Shown here: positions 13,881-26,009 of the stretch, in pieces
How positions within the stretch are numbered: the stretch's first letter is position 1
Layout of the letters: each line of letters opens with the position of its first letter
Source of the DNA: a virus
Reading direction: 5' to 3' (one strand)
Length of the DNA: 26,283 bases
Virus record (IMG/VR): IMGVR_UViG_3300007770_000078
Location: 1 to 26,283 of that record
The notes under the pieces: model-generated
The model's input: the letters and a program-made list of their open reading frames with translations, nothing else
What the model was told of the DNA's origin: nothing
Database searches by the model: none
Translations under genes and position numbers: made by a program

Positions 13881-15359
13881 ATGGCGCTTGCAGTCGAGCG
13901 GATGTCTCCGGAGGACATCGCTCGTGAAATCGAACTGATCAGGACGATCCAGGAACGGGAAAAGTTTAACCAGATCGAGCTCTACGATCCGTACCCGTTC
14001 CAAAAGCAGTTCATCGAAGCAACGGCCGAATCATCTCAAGCGGTACTGTGTGCCGGCAACCGTGTCGGCAAGACCCGAACGGGGGCATTTATTGCCGCCG
14101 CAGCAGCTACCGGCCGCTACCCAGAATGGTATTCAGGGGTCCGCTTCGACGGACCCGTAACAGTCTGGTGTGGCGGCGTCTCGACGGAAACGGTGCGGGA
14201 CATCGTCCAGGCAGAGCTCCTGGGAACACCAGGAGACCCGAACGCGCTCGGTACGGGAATGATCCCGAAGAGCTGCATTGTTGAAACTCAGAGAAAACCA
14301 GGGGTACCGAATGCGGTCGCAATGGCGATCATCCGTCACGTTTCCGGTGGCACGAGTTATCTGTACTTTAAGGCGTATCTCACCGGTAACGAAATCTGGA
14401 TGGGTCGCAGCTGTGATCTGATATGGCTCGACGAGGAACCCCCACGAGAAATCTACACCCAGGCGGTAACCAGAACACTCGACCGCAAGGGAACGGTCTT
14501 CATGACATATACGCCCGAATCGGGTATGTCAGAAACCACAGCGCAGTTCTTCACGAACCTGCGCCCAGGTCAGGCGCTTTGCCACGGCAGCTGGGACGAC
14601 GCCAGCGAAGAAGTGCAGTCGACCCTGAAGAAGAACCCAGGACACCTGACCGAAGCAGCAATGTCGCAAATTCTCGAGGCGTATCCGCCGATGGAACGAG
14701 AGATGCGCAAGTACGGGAGACCGAGCCTGGGCTCGGGCCTGGTGTTCCCCGTACCTGAAGACAAGCTGATCTGCGAACCGTTCGTCATACCGGAACACTT
14801 CCTACGTATAGCCGGCCTGGACTTCGGATGGCAGCATCCGACTGCTTACTGTGCAGTCGCCTGGGACGAAGAGGACGACATCGTCTACGTCTACGACACG
14901 TACCGCGAGTCGCAACGGACACCGGAACAGCATGCGTCTGCGATCAACACGCGCCCGAACTGGGTGCCGTGTGCATGGCCGCATGACGGCAACCGTCGCG
15001 ATTCAATGGGTAACCCTGGTCTCGCTGAGCAATACCGGGTGCATGGTGTGAACCTGCTCGCAGAGCACTTTACGAATCCACCGGCGACCGGCGAGAAGAA
15101 AGGCGGCAACAGCATCGAGGTCGGTGTGATGGACATGCTGCAGCGAATGCAGTCAGACCGCTTTAAGGTGTTTTCAACACAAGCAGATTTTTTTGAAGAG
15201 TTACGCATGTATCACCGGAAGGACGGGAAAATTCAACCGCTTAAGGACGACCTGCTCAGCGCATGCCGTTACGCGGTGATGTCGCTGCGGTACGCAGTGC
15301 CTGAAGGCGACTCCCCCTGGAAAGGTGAGATTCAGTACCCGTACTTAGGGGTGGTGTAG
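13881..15359 (+). CDS. terL: Terminase large subunit (ATPase/nuclease)
   Basis: The 492-residue product contains the packaging-motor ATPase with Walker A AGNRVGKT (58-65), Walker B LIWLDEE (180-186) and the coupling segment FMTYTPESG (about 207-215). A C-terminal RNase H-like nuclease follows, with Asp314 (AGLDFGWQHPTA), Asp339 (VYVYDTYRE) and acidic residues near 455 (KDDLLSACRYAVMS). It pumps DNA into the prohead through the portal and cuts the concatemer. Length and motif order are normal. Its stop overlaps the next GTG by one base. Confidence 0.95.
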   Translation: MALAVERMSPEDIAREIELIRTIQEREKFNQIELYDPYPFQKQFIEATAESSQAVLCAGNRVGKTRTGAFIAAAAATGRYPEWYSGVRFDGPVTVWCGGVSTETVRDIVQAELLGTPGDPNALGTGMIPKSCIVETQRKPGVPNAVAMAIIRHVSGGTSYLYFKAYLTGNEIWMGRSCDLIWLDEEPPREIYTQAVTRTLDRKGTVFMTYTPESGMSETTAQFFTNLRPGQALCHGSWDDASEEVQSTLKKNPGHLTEAAMSQILEAYPPMEREMRKYGRPSLGSGLVFPVPEDKLICEPFVIPEHFLRIAGLDFGWQHPTAYCAVAWDEEDDIVYVYDTYRESQRTPEQHASAINTRPNWVPCAWPHDGNRRDSMGNPGLAEQYRVHGVNLLAEHFTNPPATGEKKGGNSIEVGVMDMLQRMQSDRFKVFSTQADFFEELRMYHRKDGKIQPLKDDLLSACRYAVMSLRYAVPEGDSPWKGEIQYPYLGVV

Positions 15360-17515
15360 TGGCTGATCCGCTTCTAGCGCAACGTCTAGGACCGTTCTTG
15401 GCTCCGTCCAAGTCGCTCTGGGAGAACCTACTCCAGCGGTTTAAGAACATTGGTCCGAGGACGATGGAGAACATCGCGGCGAGTGCCGAGATGCTGGGCG
15501 CTGCTCCGCAACGCTCTGTAATGTATCAATCGAAGGTTCCAAAGCCAGCGTTTTATGACTCCGCACGAACTGTCGGACGGAACATAGCCGGTCTATTGGG
15601 TATTGGTTCTGCTGTGCCGGCAGGGCTCCTGCGGGCGCTGGTAGAGGACCCCATCTCTGAACAACTCCAGCTAGAGGCTGACCTCAGTGAGGGTCAGGCG
15701 GAGATGGCTGCGATGGCGGCGACTGGTCTGATCCCCCTCGGGGCGACAACCAAGGCCGGCAAGTTAAGTAAACTCAAGCGAGTAAAGTCTGGAGAGAGCA
15801 AAGGTCAGTACGTTGGTGGTCCTAGAGGTTTAGACAGTCCACAAAAGCTCGGTGCAATGCTGGAGGACTACAAGCAACTTGTCCAACTTGGGATAGAGGG
15901 TCGTTACTTTTACGATGACAGTAGTAACTTCTTCCTGGCGGCAACCGGGGGTAATGTTCCGGAAGCGACAAAGCTGGCGAGGAGTTCGGCCGTCTATTCA
16001 CAACGAATGGGTGTTGATCCGAACCTGGGGCACGCTATAAAGGCTCATTACGAGGCTGCGTTGGGAAACAAGATTACTGCTGGTGGGTTCCCCGCTACAC
16101 AGCGGCCGACTGTTCAGGCTATTTATCGGGGGGAAAATCCCGATTTAGGGCCAAAGCGTGGGCCTTATTCACAAAATCTTCAGGTGGCCTGGGAACCAGG
16201 CTTGTCTGATCGCCCCGTAAACGATATTTGGCAGGGGAGGGCGATGGGGTACACAGACCCAGAGGGTAATCCGTGGTCGTCTGGGTTCAGTCCTACTCAG
16301 CATGAGTTTATGACGACCGTAACCAACGACCGGATAACCCCGAAGTTAAACGAGGAGAAACTTGGCGGCTATGATGATTGGGATAACCTAAAAACTCAGG
16401 CATCGTCATGGTCTGGTGAGCAACTGCGTACTGGATACATTCAACCTGGAGAGGAGGGATACAACTACGCTACTTTTGAGCCGAAGTATCGCGGTCTGCT
16501 GACGCGGGAGACTATGCCGGGATCAACGACCGGCCACCTACAGGAGCTTCTGTCAAATCCAGCGGCGAGGCGGGATTACCATGACGAGATGATGAGTATC
16601 TTGATTGATCCCAAGACCGGCAAAGACCAGATCGCACGGGCGTTTCATTTGTTGACGCCTGAAGACCCGTTTCTTGCTAGGGGGTTTTATGTCAACCCAG
16701 CGGGTGAGGTCGAAATGAATCCCGCCTATCATGTGCCGTTCTTATCTGGGCGTAAGAAGATAGATCGGAAGTACGGCAAGATGACAACAATGGACCCAGC
16801 CACCAGGACTCTGGTCAACGCCGCCGAAAGCGCCTACTCACAACTTTCTGCCCAAAATGCATACGGGTGGAATTACGTCATGGCGAGTGACAAGACGACA
16901 TTACCAAGAGTTACTGCGGTAAGTGTTGATATGGGGAGAGCACTGACTGACGATGAGTTAACAAATCTCTATAAGAAGATGGACAAGGTATGGGGGTATG
17001 AGGCAATGCCGTCGCCGAATGACAGAGGATTTAACATTCTCTACTTCGGTCCTCCAAGGCATGCAAAAAAAGATAAAAAAGGGCGCTATGTAGGGTCGAA
17101 ATTTGCAGACGACGCGAGTAAAATAACAGACTCATTTCTAAAAGAGGTCGGCGAAACTGCCGAAATCAAGTATGCCCAAGCAACCACAGGCTACAAAGAG
17201 AACAACTGGGCTACCGAAAGATACGGAGAGACTTTCACACAGTCTGCTAACATCAGCGGACGACCCAGCCTACGCGCGGCTTATGATGACGTCGTCCCTG
17301 AGATCGCTGCCAAAATCAACGCACTCGAAACCCGCTTTGCGCCGAAGCACGGACTGACTGTCAATAAAGACATTCAGAAAATGCGCGAAGCCTTGGCGCG
17401 TGGGGGTTTGAAGGGTCTCGAAAAACTAATTAAGACAGGAGTGCTTCCAACGACGCTAGTGGCGACCCTCCTGTACGAGTTGCGTTTCGGAACTTCTGAG
17501 CCAGAACAGAGTTAG
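15359..17515 (+). CDS. Large 718-aa protein of unknown function between terminase and portal
   Basis: It starts at GTG 15359, overlapping the terL stop. The N-terminal third has a hydrophobic Gly/Ala-rich part (GRNIAGLLGIGSAVPAGLLR and MAAMAATGLIPLGA) resembling proteins that contact membranes or DNA-packaging cavities. A middle domain (about residues 170-290) reads DDSSNFFLAATGG, GVDPNLGHAIKAHYE and NLQVAWEPGLSDRPVNDIWQ; I recall similar blocks in uncharacterised large phage proteins, possibly DUF7178, but cannot verify this. The C-terminus ends in a hydrophobic helix (VLPTTLVATLLYEL). It may be an injected internal virion protein. Sample base composition (about 45-48% GC) is lower than terL's (about 60%). 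An intrinsic terminator follows. Confidence 0.75.
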   Translation: MADPLLAQRLGPFLAPSKSLWENLLQRFKNIGPRTMENIAASAEMLGAAPQRSVMYQSKVPKPAFYDSARTVGRNIAGLLGIGSAVPAGLLRALVEDPISEQLQLEADLSEGQAEMAAMAATGLIPLGATTKAGKLSKLKRVKSGESKGQYVGGPRGLDSPQKLGAMLEDYKQLVQLGIEGRYFYDDSSNFFLAATGGNVPEATKLARSSAVYSQRMGVDPNLGHAIKAHYEAALGNKITAGGFPATQRPTVQAIYRGENPDLGPKRGPYSQNLQVAWEPGLSDRPVNDIWQGRAMGYTDPEGNPWSSGFSPTQHEFMTTVTNDRITPKLNEEKLGGYDDWDNLKTQASSWSGEQLRTGYIQPGEEGYNYATFEPKYRGLLTRETMPGSTTGHLQELLSNPAARRDYHDEMMSILIDPKTGKDQIARAFHLLTPEDPFLARGFYVNPAGEVEMNPAYHVPFLSGRKKIDRKYGKMTTMDPATRTLVNAAESAYSQLSAQNAYGWNYVMASDKTTLPRVTAVSVDMGRALTDDELTNLYKKMDKVWGYEAMPSPNDRGFNILYFGPPRHAKKDKKGRYVGSKFADDASKITDSFLKEVGETAEIKYAQATTGYKENNWATERYGETFTQSANISGRPSLRAAYDDVVPEIAAKINALETRFAPKHGLTVNKDIQKMREALARGGLKGLEKLIKTGVLPTTLVATLLYELRFGTSEPEQS

Positions 17516-17532: not shown

Positions 17533-17558
17533 AACCGGGCTTTAGGCCCGGTTTTTTT
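17533..17558 (+). terminator. Intrinsic terminator before the portal gene
   Basis: AACCGGGC-TTTA-GGCCCGGTT type stem followed by seven T. It separates the terminase/718-aa unit from the portal unit and would reduce read-through unless late antitermination occurs. Confidence 0.85.
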
Positions 17559-17570
17559 ATGGGAATTTAA

Positions 17571-19547
17571 ATGTCACAACCTACCGACGAAGAACTGTTA
17601 GCGAGAATCGGACAAGAGGTAAACGTCGCGCTCGGTAACGACGACGAACTGTCTGATCAACGTCGCGAGGCGATGGACCGCTACTGGGGTTTACCTTACG
17701 GCAACGAAATCGAAGGTCGCAGCCAGGTCTGTACCACTGACACTCAGGATGTGATCGAGTGGATCAAGCCTTCGCTGGTTCGCGTCTTTGCGAGCTCTGA
17801 TCAGATCGTTAAGTTTCATCCTGAAGGTCCAGAGGATATTCCCTACGCGGAACAGGCAACGGCCTATGTGAATTTCATTCTCACTCGGGACAATAACTGG
17901 TTCGACATCTTTACGTCCTGGATTACCGACGCGCTGCTACAAAAGCTCGGCGTCGTCAAAGTCTGGTGGGACGAAACCGACTACGTCGATCGTGAGGAGT
18001 ATCACGACCTCGATGACCTGGAGCTCGAGGCACTGCTCGCAGATGAAGAGGTCGAAGTCCTGGAGCACACCGAAAAAGAAGGTGAGCCGATTCTTGATGA
18101 GATGACCGGCATGCAGCAGCTGCCCCAGCTGACTCACGACGTCGCCATCACGCGCAACACGAAAAAGGGCAGGGTCAAAATTGAAAACGTACCACCCGAC
18201 GAATTCCTCATCGACCGCGAAGCCAAGAGCATCAGTGACGCCAGGTTTGTCTGTCACCGCGTCCGCCGCACGCTTTCAGAGATGCGCGAAATGGGTTACG
18301 ACGTGGACCCCGAGCGTCTGGGTAATGCCAGCGGTGATATTGCTGCCTTTAGTGCTGAACGAAACAGCCGTTATGAGTTTGATAACAGCTCTCCCTATGG
18401 ATTCGACGGTCACTCCGAGGATTCTCTAAAAGACTTCTGGCTTTATGAGAGTTACTTAAGAACCGACTATGACGGTGACGGTATCGCCGAGCGTCGTCGT
18501 ATCTTAAGTGTCGGAGATCAGATACTCGAAAACGAGCCGGTCGATCGTTTCCCGTTCTGCAGTATTACGCCGATCAAAATTCCGCATCGCTTGTTTGGCA
18601 TGTCGGTTGCCGACCAGGTCGGCGACATACAGCTCGTCAAAACAACGCTGATGCGTAACCTGCTCGATTCAGCCTACCTGCAGAACAGCGGCCGCATGAT
18701 GGCAGTCGAAGGTCAAGTGAATCTCGATGACCTCGTCACATCTCGCCCAGGCGGCATAGTACGCACTCGAGCTCCTGGTGCGGTCACACCATTACCGACG
18801 CCCCCGCTGCAGCCTTACGTCTTCGACATGCTGCAGTACATGGACCAGATACGAGAGGAGCGCAGCGGCTCGTCGCGTATGAGCCAGGGTCTCGATGAAA
18901 ACGCCTTAACGTCCCATACGTCCGCGACTCAGGTCGCGCAGGTGATGACGGCAGCTGCACAACGTGTCGAGCTCATCGCACGTCAATTTGCAGAGACCGG
19001 CGTAAAGGACTTAATGCATGCGGTCTACGAGCTGGTACAAAAGCACCAGGACAAGGAGCGCGTTATTCAGCTCCGCAACCAGTGGATTCCGGTGCGCCCA
19101 GATCATTGGCGCGAAAAGATGGATTGCGTGGTCGCGGTCGGCCTGGGACATGGCAACCGGGATCAGCAGCTGATGCATCTGTCTAACCTCATGCAGTTCG
19201 CGTCGCAAGCGATGTCCGGTGGTCTGTCGATCGTCAACGAGCAGAACCTGTACAACCTGGGCGCCGAGCTTGTTAAGAACATGGGATTCAAGGACGTCGA
19301 TTCTTTCCTGACGGACCCGAGCCAGCAACCGCAGCAGCAGGGTCAGCCTTCGCCTGAAGAGCAGATGGCACAAGCCGAGCTACAGCTTAAGCAGGGTGAG
19401 CTCGAGGTCAAGATCGCTGAGACGCAGATCAAACAGCAGAAGCTGCAGCTCGAGGCAGCACAAGGTCAACAAGAGATGCAGCTCAAGGCCGCTGAGCTGA
19501 AACTCGAATCTGAACAGGCGCGGCCCGTAGCAATCGGAGACACATGA
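17571..19547 (+). CDS. Portal protein (P22/SU10-type podovirus portal)
   Basis: The 658-residue product starts MSQPTDEELLARIGQEVNVA and contains the portal core blocks EGRSQVCTTDTQDVIEWIKP, SLVRVFASSDQIVKFHP, then VPPDEFLIDREAKSISDARF and the stem-like KIPHRLFGMSVADQVGDIQL. The long C-terminal coiled coil (QAELQLKQGELEVKIAETQI...) is typical of this portal group. It forms the dodecameric ring through which DNA passes and to which adaptor proteins bind. Its place before a scaffold/capsid pair fits. ATG 17571 has only a weak purine signal (GGGAA). Confidence 0.93.
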   Translation: MSQPTDEELLARIGQEVNVALGNDDELSDQRREAMDRYWGLPYGNEIEGRSQVCTTDTQDVIEWIKPSLVRVFASSDQIVKFHPEGPEDIPYAEQATAYVNFILTRDNNWFDIFTSWITDALLQKLGVVKVWWDETDYVDREEYHDLDDLELEALLADEEVEVLEHTEKEGEPILDEMTGMQQLPQLTHDVAITRNTKKGRVKIENVPPDEFLIDREAKSISDARFVCHRVRRTLSEMREMGYDVDPERLGNASGDIAAFSAERNSRYEFDNSSPYGFDGHSEDSLKDFWLYESYLRTDYDGDGIAERRRILSVGDQILENEPVDRFPFCSITPIKIPHRLFGMSVADQVGDIQLVKTTLMRNLLDSAYLQNSGRMMAVEGQVNLDDLVTSRPGGIVRTRAPGAVTPLPTPPLQPYVFDMLQYMDQIREERSGSSRMSQGLDENALTSHTSATQVAQVMTAAAQRVELIARQFAETGVKDLMHAVYELVQKHQDKERVIQLRNQWIPVRPDHWREKMDCVVAVGLGHGNRDQQLMHLSNLMQFASQAMSGGLSIVNEQNLYNLGAELVKNMGFKDVDSFLTDPSQQPQQQGQPSPEEQMAQAELQLKQGELEVKIAETQIKQQKLQLEAAQGQQEMQLKAAELKLESEQARPVAIGDT

Positions 19548-24717: not shown

Positions 24718-25041
24718 ATGGCAAATACCTTTAAAAACGCTGCCGCTGCAATTGGCACGAGTCGGACTGACGTTTACACCGCGCCAGCTGCGACTGCCAG
24801 TGTCATACACGCAGTCTATCTATCCAACATCGATGGCACGAGCTCAGTAGACGCGACCATCGAGGTCTACGACTCTTCCGCGACTACTTATTACCACGTC
24901 GGGAAGACCCTACCAGTGCCGGCCGACTCTACGTTAGTTCTGGATAAGCCCCTCAACCTCGAGACCGGCGACAAGGTGACCATCACCGCGTCAGCTGCAA
25001 GCGATCTCGAGGCATTTCTTTCAGTTCTTGAAATCACATGA
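24718..25041 (+). CDS. Small beta-rich fibre-region protein
   Basis: The 107-residue product begins MANTFKNAAAAIGTSRTDVY and has a regular beta pattern (VIHAVYLSNIDGTSSVDATI, then TLPVPADSTLVLDKPLNLET and GDKVTITASAASDLEAFLSV). The 'T-x-x-VYTAP-x-x-x-x-A-x-V-x-x-x-x-x-S-N' opening is common in small marine-phage virion proteins. Likely a structural component near the fibre. The stop overlaps the next ATG (ATGA). Confidence 0.7.
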   Translation: MANTFKNAAAAIGTSRTDVYTAPAATASVIHAVYLSNIDGTSSVDATIEVYDSSATTYYHVGKTLPVPADSTLVLDKPLNLETGDKVTITASAASDLEAFLSVLEIT

Positions 25042-26009
25042 GTTACTTAGGTAAATACGAGCAAAGGGCGACGAACATAAAGAGGTTTGATGCAACAGGC
25101 TCAACGTCTGCTACTCATACCTTAACGTGGGTTCCCACAAACGAACAAAGCATCATTGTTACCATAAATGGTATCAAACAGCACGAAGATGCTTACTCTG
25201 TTTCTGGGGCTGTTCTGACCCTAACTTCCGCCCTCGTATCTACCGACAAATTAGAAGTAATCGGTATTCAAGATATTGGAGTAGGCATAGTCCCGGCTGA
25301 TGGCGTTGTTAAGAATGTCCATATAGATGATTCAGCCGCAATAGCCAAAACCAAACTAGCCTCTCTTGATATCGTTAATGCAGACGTTAATGCTTCAGCG
25401 GCGATTGCAACCTCAAAGATCAGCGGTCTTGCGACATCAGCCACGACTGACACGACTGACGCCTCTAATATCTCTACAGGAACTTTAGGTACTGCACGTT
25501 TAGGTTCTGGAACAGCAGACGCTACGACATTCTTGAGGGGGGATCAGAGTTGGGCGGCGGCTGGTGGAAATAATACGCCAGCATTCCATGCTAACTATTC
25601 TAGTTACACAAATTCATGGTCAGCGGGAACTTGGACTAAAGTTCCTTTCGATACAGAAACTTTTGACACTGACAGCGACTTTGATCTTACAACAGAAAGA
25701 TTCACACCCACAACAACCGGAAAATATTATGTATATGGGCAAGTTTGCGGGAGTGCCAACAGTGGCAACTTAACATCGACTGGAGTGAGTATTTATAAAA
25801 ATGGTTCTGAGGTATTAACCAGTCGTGAAGAATTCCGTTCCGGGTCTTCATCAGCAGATGTGGAGTACAGGTTTGTAGCCGGAATCATTGATATGAATGG
25901 GAGTACCGATTATCTTGAGTTGTGGGGCAAAATAAACGCGGCCTCTGGCACTTATAGTTTATCTGGCGAGACAACCAGAGTCTTTTTTGGAGCATTTAGA
26001 TTGCTATGA
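25038..26009 (+). CDS. Tail fibre / receptor-binding protein with C1q-like C-terminal domain
   Basis: The 323-residue product has three parts. The N-terminal fold is at about 1-85 (RFDATGSTSATHTLTWVP, VTINGIKQHEDAYSVSGAVL). The shaft is at about 90-175 (HIDDSAAIAKTKLASL, ASAAIATSKISGLA, GTARLGSGTADATTFLRGDQ). The globular end is at about 180-323. This last part (PAFHANYSSY, TWTKVPFDTETFDTDSDFDL, RFTPTTTGKYYVYGQVCGSA, ending TTRVFFGAFRLL) resembles C1q/TNF-like jelly-roll trimers that bind host receptors. Base composition is clearly more AT-rich than upstream genes (sampled 37-48% versus about 58% GC), suggesting recent exchange. Confidence 0.8.
   Translation: MSYLGKYEQRATNIKRFDATGSTSATHTLTWVPTNEQSIIVTINGIKQHEDAYSVSGAVLTLTSALVSTDKLEVIGIQDIGVGIVPADGVVKNVHIDDSAAIAKTKLASLDIVNADVNASAAIATSKISGLATSATTDTTDASNISTGTLGTARLGSGTADATTFLRGDQSWAAAGGNNTPAFHANYSSYTNSWSAGTWTKVPFDTETFDTDSDFDLTTERFTPTTTGKYYVYGQVCGSANSGNLTSTGVSIYKNGSEVLTSREEFRSGSSSADVEYRFVAGIIDMNGSTDYLELWGKINAASGTYSLSGETTRVFFGAFRLL

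Follow-up and report, generated by a model that had tools for sequence, protein, structure and literature searches.

We consider a 26,283-base viral record, IMGVR_UViG_3300007770_000078 (the window, by which we mean the whole stretch of DNA analysed), and in it the gene at 15359-17515, named X here, that lies between the genes for the terminase large subunit (TerL) and the portal protein. Our reading is that X is an exchangeable, glycosylase-like protein in a cargo slot at the terL-portal junction, probably carried in the virion and injected, and we give this reading about an even chance (roughly 0.5). It draws on the exchange of whole genes at this junction, on a predicted fold for the conserved core of X that points to the HhH-GPD superfamily of DNA glycosylases, and on the company that X and its relatives keep in phage genomes. 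The features discussed are listed with their coordinates in Table 1; other loci are denoted by L and a number.

A slot between terL and portal

The original prediction described X as a large, 718-residue open reading frame (ORF) with a GTG start that overlaps terL by one base, and this is upheld. The frame at 15359-17515 is open, the start of X and the stop of terL have 1 base in common, and the GTG start is credible because an ATG stands at this position in the homologue L002. Its placement between TerL and portal is confirmed by Pfam matches on both flanking genes. The frame is under purifying selection, with a ratio of nonsynonymous to synonymous substitution rates (dN/dS) against L002 of 0.16 for the gene and 0.07 for the core alone; the ratio of 2.1 for residues 1-135 means little because the DNA is almost identical there.

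Relatives of the junction were gathered with the portal as query, which gave 64 loci; LUZ24-like phages are among the matches when the window portal serves as a tblastn query. TerL and portal can both be seen in 45 contigs; the two genes are next to each other in 35 of these and separated by an insert of about 1.2 to 2.2 kb in the other 10. TerL directly adjoins portal also in LUZ24, Lyrsu01 and MW202481, so that the two genes are indeed usually adjacent, as had been claimed. An all-against-all blastp comparison of 23 slot proteins, those cut by a contig end included, yields the X family, a second one (L015-L019, L065), one rich in glycine and proline (L020-L022) and a third alternative family (L028, L031, L032, L064, L067, and by a weak link L037), together with the singletons L011, L012 and L035. 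The 10 inserts with both borders fall in these four sequence-unrelated families, and the profile of the X core finds no match in the eleven alternative slot occupants tested. A survey of the genes found at this position in relatives, which the original prediction had proposed as a check, thus gives exchangeable occupants and, for the most part, no insert.

The borders of the exchange can be read from close relatives. The terL genes of L010, which carries X, and L019, which carries the second family, are 95.7% identical, and the match runs on for 6 nt into the slot gene. It is lost in the rest of the slot and returns, at 92.5% identity, with the start codon of portal. Between the window and L065 the matches (79% and 82%) stop at 15365 and resume at 17552. 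Judged from these sequence comparisons, the slot exchange is precise, the occupants changing at gene boundaries.

In a tree of 41 portals (40 loci and the window), the label X needs at least 5 changes, 5 of which are forced by well-supported branches, and the four rows of the window portal clade have four different slot occupants; one of these rows, L065, has only 39% of its columns filled, and in the tree L003 and L005 stand on long branches. The tree leaves out the loci with the slot outside the contig, second contig copies, 17 of the 35 insert-free rows, the divergent L062, L068 and L072, L002 with its portal fragment, and near-copies of L005. The last but one is informative in its slot gene: between the window and L002 the terL genes have 44-69% identity per 100 bases, a 700-base block at 15381-16080 (the first third of X) is 98-100% identical, and beyond 16080 the identity falls to 57-89%. 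The phages are otherwise diverged, and our reading of this block is that part of the slot gene was transferred recently. That the terL-portal junction is a slot with occupants exchanged between close relatives is well supported, and it gives a precise genomic address where related phages trade whole cargo genes.

The composition of X tells a simpler story than the low content of guanine and cytosine (GC, 45-48%) that it had been assigned. The whole-gene GC is 52.6% and that of the window 54.1%, 23% of equal-length stretches are lower, and 4 of the 35 60-nt lines of X lie under 48%; on full-gene counts X is ordinary, and composition as a sign of its recent acquisition is ruled out. The GC content at third codon positions (GC3) is 0.548 in X, 0.665 in terL, 0.645 in portal, 0.560 in scaffold and 0.586 in capsid. 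A tail-fibre-like gene at 25038-26009 has the lowest values of the 13 genes measured (GC 44.4%, GC3 0.37), and the composition outlier of the window is therefore that gene and not X.

Some features of the other slot occupants are worth recording. Full copies of the second family (including L016:47-2380, L019:618-2849 and L065:3001-5178, beside L017, L015 and L018) are 725-777 residues long, with conserved blocks split by highly variable internal segments. L019 and L065 weakly match phrog_7348, a 2,564-position "endolysin" profile, and L019 weakly matches proteins of Dolichospermum phage Dfl-JY45 and Pseudoalteromonas phage PH1. In the glycine/proline-rich family, the slot proteins L020:3554-4774 and L022:1071-2234 (with L021) are 95% identical in their first 41 residues and have different middles, the portals of L020, L021 and L022 being near-identical despite this. 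A glycine/proline-rich stretch follows the common head in L020 and L022, and the ends of the L020 and L021 proteins have 41% identity over 80 residues. A reading of the slot gene of L012 as an ADP-ribosyltransferase, from a C-terminal motif, was set aside, since neither Pfam nor blastp against the ART region of L109 supports it.

Predicted fold of the X core

The closest same-slot relatives of X are 84, 74, 60 and 57% identical to it. Wider searches reached relatives at 33% and 22% identity and then 27 distinct loci, and a core-only search gave 84 confirmed stretches (80 kept, 79 loci), every one of them in a viral contig. No relative was confirmed when 84,980 prokaryotic genomes were scanned twice with short peptide patterns, a search that is not exhaustive. 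The relatives were found via such patterns, including PVNDIW / VNDIW and N-G-K around residues 222-228, so that conservation at VNDIW and N-G-K is partly by construction. The core alignment (A6) was made from 60 listed cores, second copies and some near-copies omitted, of which 37 remain after a 93% identity filter.

The AlphaFold2 model of full-length X has a mean predicted local distance difference test (pLDDT) of 59.6 and a predicted template modelling score (pTM) of 0.43; for residues 141-370 the block means of pLDDT are 61-91. Modelling the core by itself with the 37 sequences raises these values to 88.2 and 0.83. An HhH-GPD hypothesis, framed on the motif of that superfamily, had been noted before the structure-search results were gathered; it came from the arrangement of helices and from two invariant residues, Lys266 and Asp289. 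With the full-length model, the best match by VIA-align is the T. maritima 8-oxoguanine glycosylase 3n0u (Z 9.8, 3.9 Å, 174 residues). With the core model, rows 1-28 of the match list have Z from 10.7 to 4.4 and the next row has Z 2.9. Out of these 28 rows, several of which are entries of one protein, 27 are named DNA glycosylases: TmOGG and MjOGG are best, followed by endonuclease III, AGOG, MagIII, OGG1, MutY and AlkA. The remaining row, 1xg7, is titled a conserved hypothetical protein, and we take it to be AGOG. The call is persuasive because the list is specific, holding one superfamily before the fall to Z 2.9. The structure prediction that had been proposed as a check therefore gives, in place of the suggested ADP-ribosyltransferase, protease or pore fold, a core resembling an HhH-GPD DNA glycosylase, and we regard this fold as well supported by the models.

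Several results weigh against this call. Foldseek against the PDB gives no match at E <= 0.001 with either model, the glycosylase 7ou3 standing at rank 7 with E 0.65, and the call rests on VIA-align, which re-ranks the best 1000 chains of Foldseek and carries a note that helical models may reach such Z by chance. A Pfam scan of the 37 cores shows no HhH-GPD model, hhalign of the core against E. coli Nth and MutY returns a probability of 0.1, and hmmsearch of the core against PDB sequences finds no glycosylase. The warning of the aligner and the non-significant E-values of Foldseek are what one would cite for taking X as an ordinary structural accessory protein whose glycosylase likeness is a chance arrangement of helices. 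We consider this very improbable, because the first 28 rows are of one superfamily (27 by their titles, and 1xg7 taken as AGOG) with all others at Z <= 2.9, and because two predictions from different alignments share their best match.

Two of the invariant residues may correspond to the catalytic pair of this superfamily. In HhH-GPD proteins a catalytic Asp, joined by a Lys in the bifunctional members, comes after the helix-hairpin-helix, and the cysteine motif for a 4Fe-4S cluster is confined to the EndoIII/MutY clade. In the 37 cores, 19 positions are strictly invariant, including Lys266, Asp289, His315, Gln347 and Trp351. According to the core model, and in its own numbering of helices, Lys266 is near the N-terminus of helix 129-138 and Asp289 is the residue preceding helix 155-160, and we presume from the model that the two are the counterparts of the catalytic Lys and Asp of glycosylases; the invariance of Asp289 carries less weight, because VNDIW served as a search pattern. 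There are 0 cysteines in the 718 residues of X and 0-1 in all 19 rows of a further alignment (A4), so X would have no iron-sulphur cluster as in EndoIII/MutY, which fits the side of the superfamily that lacks one.

Sequence searches do not identify X. It has no domain under Pfam, its best match in PHROGs has E = 0.39 and a family of unknown function, and no identification comes from Pfam, PHROGs, tblastn against INPHARED or PDB sequences. The link to a named family comes through its relatives: 10 of the 37 core relatives match Pfam DUF7178 (PF23802, function unknown) at E <= 1, the best at 1.9e-9, and L075 is above the curated cut-off of the family (36.5 bits, residues 142-263, within its core). 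X of the window has no DUF7178 match in the Pfam scan, and our literature search found no paper naming the family.

In the viral structure library, the core model matches phage proteins, 7 of them at E <= 0.001 with names that are uninformative except for a helicase/UvrB label; an LPD-domain name appears at 2.8e-3, and ART-PolyVal names at 0.06 and above. For one match, Synechococcus phage S-CBP42 (BFVD, E 7.4e-3), a search of the first 30 kb of its record of about 45 kb with the core profile gave no hit. Outside the core, residues 515-611 of X match ferredoxin-like folds by VIA-align with Z up to 7.3, a range that the tool calls common.

Neighbouring genes and transcription of X

We counted how often TerL or portal lies near X-like genes in 74 X-like loci by tblastn, with queries partly from the same loci; second contig copies, the near-copies L003, L004, L119 and those of L075/L077, and L090 were left out. 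TerL or portal is seen in 46 of the 74 loci, in 45 of them within 3 kb of the core, and neither is seen in 28, so the link is common and not universal. The core is found at varying positions: between the two genes, following TerL, ahead of both or, in L082, following a portal of the P22 type. It forms the end of a 1,315-residue protein carrying LPD23 (3.2e-8) in L092, and in L109 it lies within a 2,042-residue protein with ART-PolyVal (1.7e-10), directly upstream of portal. According to passages of Iyer et al. 2017 (PMC5512222), the packaging of polyvalent proteins was inferred from such proximity to portal and terminase genes. The idea of the original prediction that X is an acquired effector or an ejected internal protein fits because the slot content is exchanged, X-like cores lie near TerL or portal (45 of 74) and polyvalent domains are fused to relatives; packaging is the inferred part of it. 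Speaking against our own reading of X are the 28 loci in which tblastn shows neither gene (23 are longer than 7 kb), the absence of a recognised polyvalent domain in X of the window by Pfam, and the lack of a match in isolate phages by tblastn with X and four relatives.

The same surroundings may be explained by a protein that only binds DNA. X could be an ejection (pilot) or head-interior protein that uses the HhH-GPD fold for packaging or delivery with no enzyme activity: it lies in the head module, L155 has a "DNA ejection protein" gene (phrog_4287, 3.2e-17) just upstream of its X-like gene, and passages of PMC8954989 describe the T7/P22 ejection proteins as mosaic, with varying domain content. 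A hydrophobic C-terminus also recurs. Hydrophobic segments had been noticed at both ends of X; both are present and a segment near the C-terminus is found in 9 of 9 relatives measured, and both are weak as membrane spans. We nevertheless hold this explanation to be unlikely. Since 35 of the 45 relatives that show both borders have no insert, X cannot be a pilot protein that they need, and Lys266, although absent from the search patterns, does not vary in any of the 37 cores. The genes upstream of X-like genes in L107, L117, L127 and L160 look by eye like internal virion proteins. PHROGs gives only families of unknown function or none for them, tblastn with the L107 gene gives one match, annotated "hypothetical protein", and these genes are not counted as evidence here.

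Other observations were made at these loci. The L092 fusion (L092:4467-8414) and those of L089, L091, L093 and L094 have a fused N-terminal part, LPD23 having been scanned in L092 only; this part has an HELQH motif, which resembles metallopeptidases of polyvalent proteins, and a match to Peptidase_M78 that stays under the cut-off (E 0.016). The gene that comes next after the LPD23/X fusion, L092:8623-11136, encodes an 837-residue protein of tandem units of about 100 residues, partly similar to an adaptor-like gene of L084. In L149:3580-5435 the portal match is divided between two consecutive ORFs and a further fragment, as would be seen in a broken gene or one with sequencing errors.

We turn our attention to the transcription of X. 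Scaffold and major capsid genes come after the window portal, and integrase and CI-like repressor genes lie upstream, by which the window phage is probably temperate. X was said to be bounded by a terminator, and a hairpin is indeed found 3' of it, with arms CCGGGC (17535-17540) and GCCCGG (17546-17551) followed by T's; a hairpin and T-run also occur in the 5 X-bearing relatives with the junction read (L002, L003, L005, L010, L014). The consensus terminator scan does not list it, and a covariation count (7 sequences, some misaligned there) is not significant. A terminator-like hairpin in a phage with integrase and repressor suggests yet another explanation, a moron-like accessory gene acting in the cytoplasm of the lysogen or in late infection (repair, superinfection exclusion, defence) and never packaged, and bacterial DNA glycosylases can be antiviral, as is reported of Brig1 (PMC11078745). 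We find it rather unlikely: in the consensus scan, the + strand from 13000 to X is free of sigma-70-like promoters, which together with the one-base terL overlap makes X read as part of the late operon, and the ART-PolyVal and LPD23 fusions in relatives argue against it as well.

Table 1. Coordinates in the window of X, its parts and its borders
Feature	Positions	Strand	Basis
terL, terminase large subunit, upstream slot border	13881-15359	+	Terminase_6N 3.9e-20, Terminase_6C 6.4e-20
Slot gene X, 718 residues, GTG start, 0 cysteines	15359-17515	+	open frame, same-slot homologues, purifying selection
Hydrophobic segment, X residues 76-94	15584-15640	+	Kyte-Doolittle 1.63
Conserved core, X residues 136-398, predicted HhH-GPD DNA-glycosylase fold	15764-16552	+	alignment, AlphaFold2, VIA-align
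Lys266 codon, presumed counterpart of catalytic Lys	16154-16156	+	invariant 37/37; in no search pattern
Asp289 codon, presumed counterpart of catalytic Asp	16223-16225	+	invariant 37/37, partly by construction
Hydrophobic C-terminal segment, X residues 690-708	17426-17482	+	Kyte-Doolittle 1.26
Hairpin and T-run between X and portal, intrinsic-terminator-like	17535-17558	+	sequence
Portal protein, SU10/LUZ24 type, downstream slot border	17571-19547	+	SU10_portal 4.8e-220

Proposed role and comparison with known systems

For X as an injected glycosylase-like protein we propose the following course. The gene, its family, the exchange at the slot, the fusions to polyvalent domains in two relatives and the predicted fold are computational results; packaging, injection, catalysis and the base target are what we infer. 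X would be expressed along with the late genes and built into the virion, and would then enter the cell together with the phage DNA, in the manner of polyvalent and ejected proteins. In the new cell, its central HhH-GPD-fold domain would scan and bind DNA, and the core might excise particular bases, damaged or modified, by means of the Lys266/Asp289 pair. The purpose may be to mend damage that the virion has picked up outside the cell, or to attack modified or host DNA.

More tentatively, and with slightly less than even confidence, we would extend this to the whole DUF7178 superfamily as HhH-GPD base-excision enzymes that phages carry and inject, that occupy a terL-portal slot dedicated to exchangeable cargo, and that on entry strip damage from the incoming genome or attack modified host, prophage or competitor DNA. 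DUF7178, a Pfam family of dozens of viral members, gains a predicted fold and a testable activity. If X is injected, the chemistry known for injected polyvalent proteins would gain base excision (the word "glycosylase" occurs 0 times in the main text of PMC5512222), and mining of the terL-portal slot should uncover further effectors. Base excision is used in phage-host conflict by bacterial antiviral glycosylases such as Brig1, according to PMC11078745, and injected enzymes of the DUF7178 superfamily would, if the proposal is true, be their phage-side counterpart.

Compared with the DUF7178 model of 193 positions, the core of the X family is aligned over about 260 residues. Like the HhH-GPD DNA glycosylases, this core has the predicted fold over about 175 residues and an invariant Lys and Asp, each at a helix start; unlike them, X has no sequence-profile match and is part of a larger protein of the phage head module. 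In PHROGs and Pfam, X shows no sequence relation to the T7/P22 ejection proteins or T4 Alt, and it differs from them in that most relatives (35 of 45) do without an insert; the proposed route, packaged and delivered with the DNA, is the one that parts of PMC8954989 and PMC5512222 give for these proteins. Polyvalent proteins have two or more effector or LPD domains each and X has none recognised, L109 and L092 being closer to them. Like the phage polyvalent proteins described in passages of PMC5512222, X is encoded among portal and terminase genes, and two of its relatives carry ART-PolyVal or LPD23.

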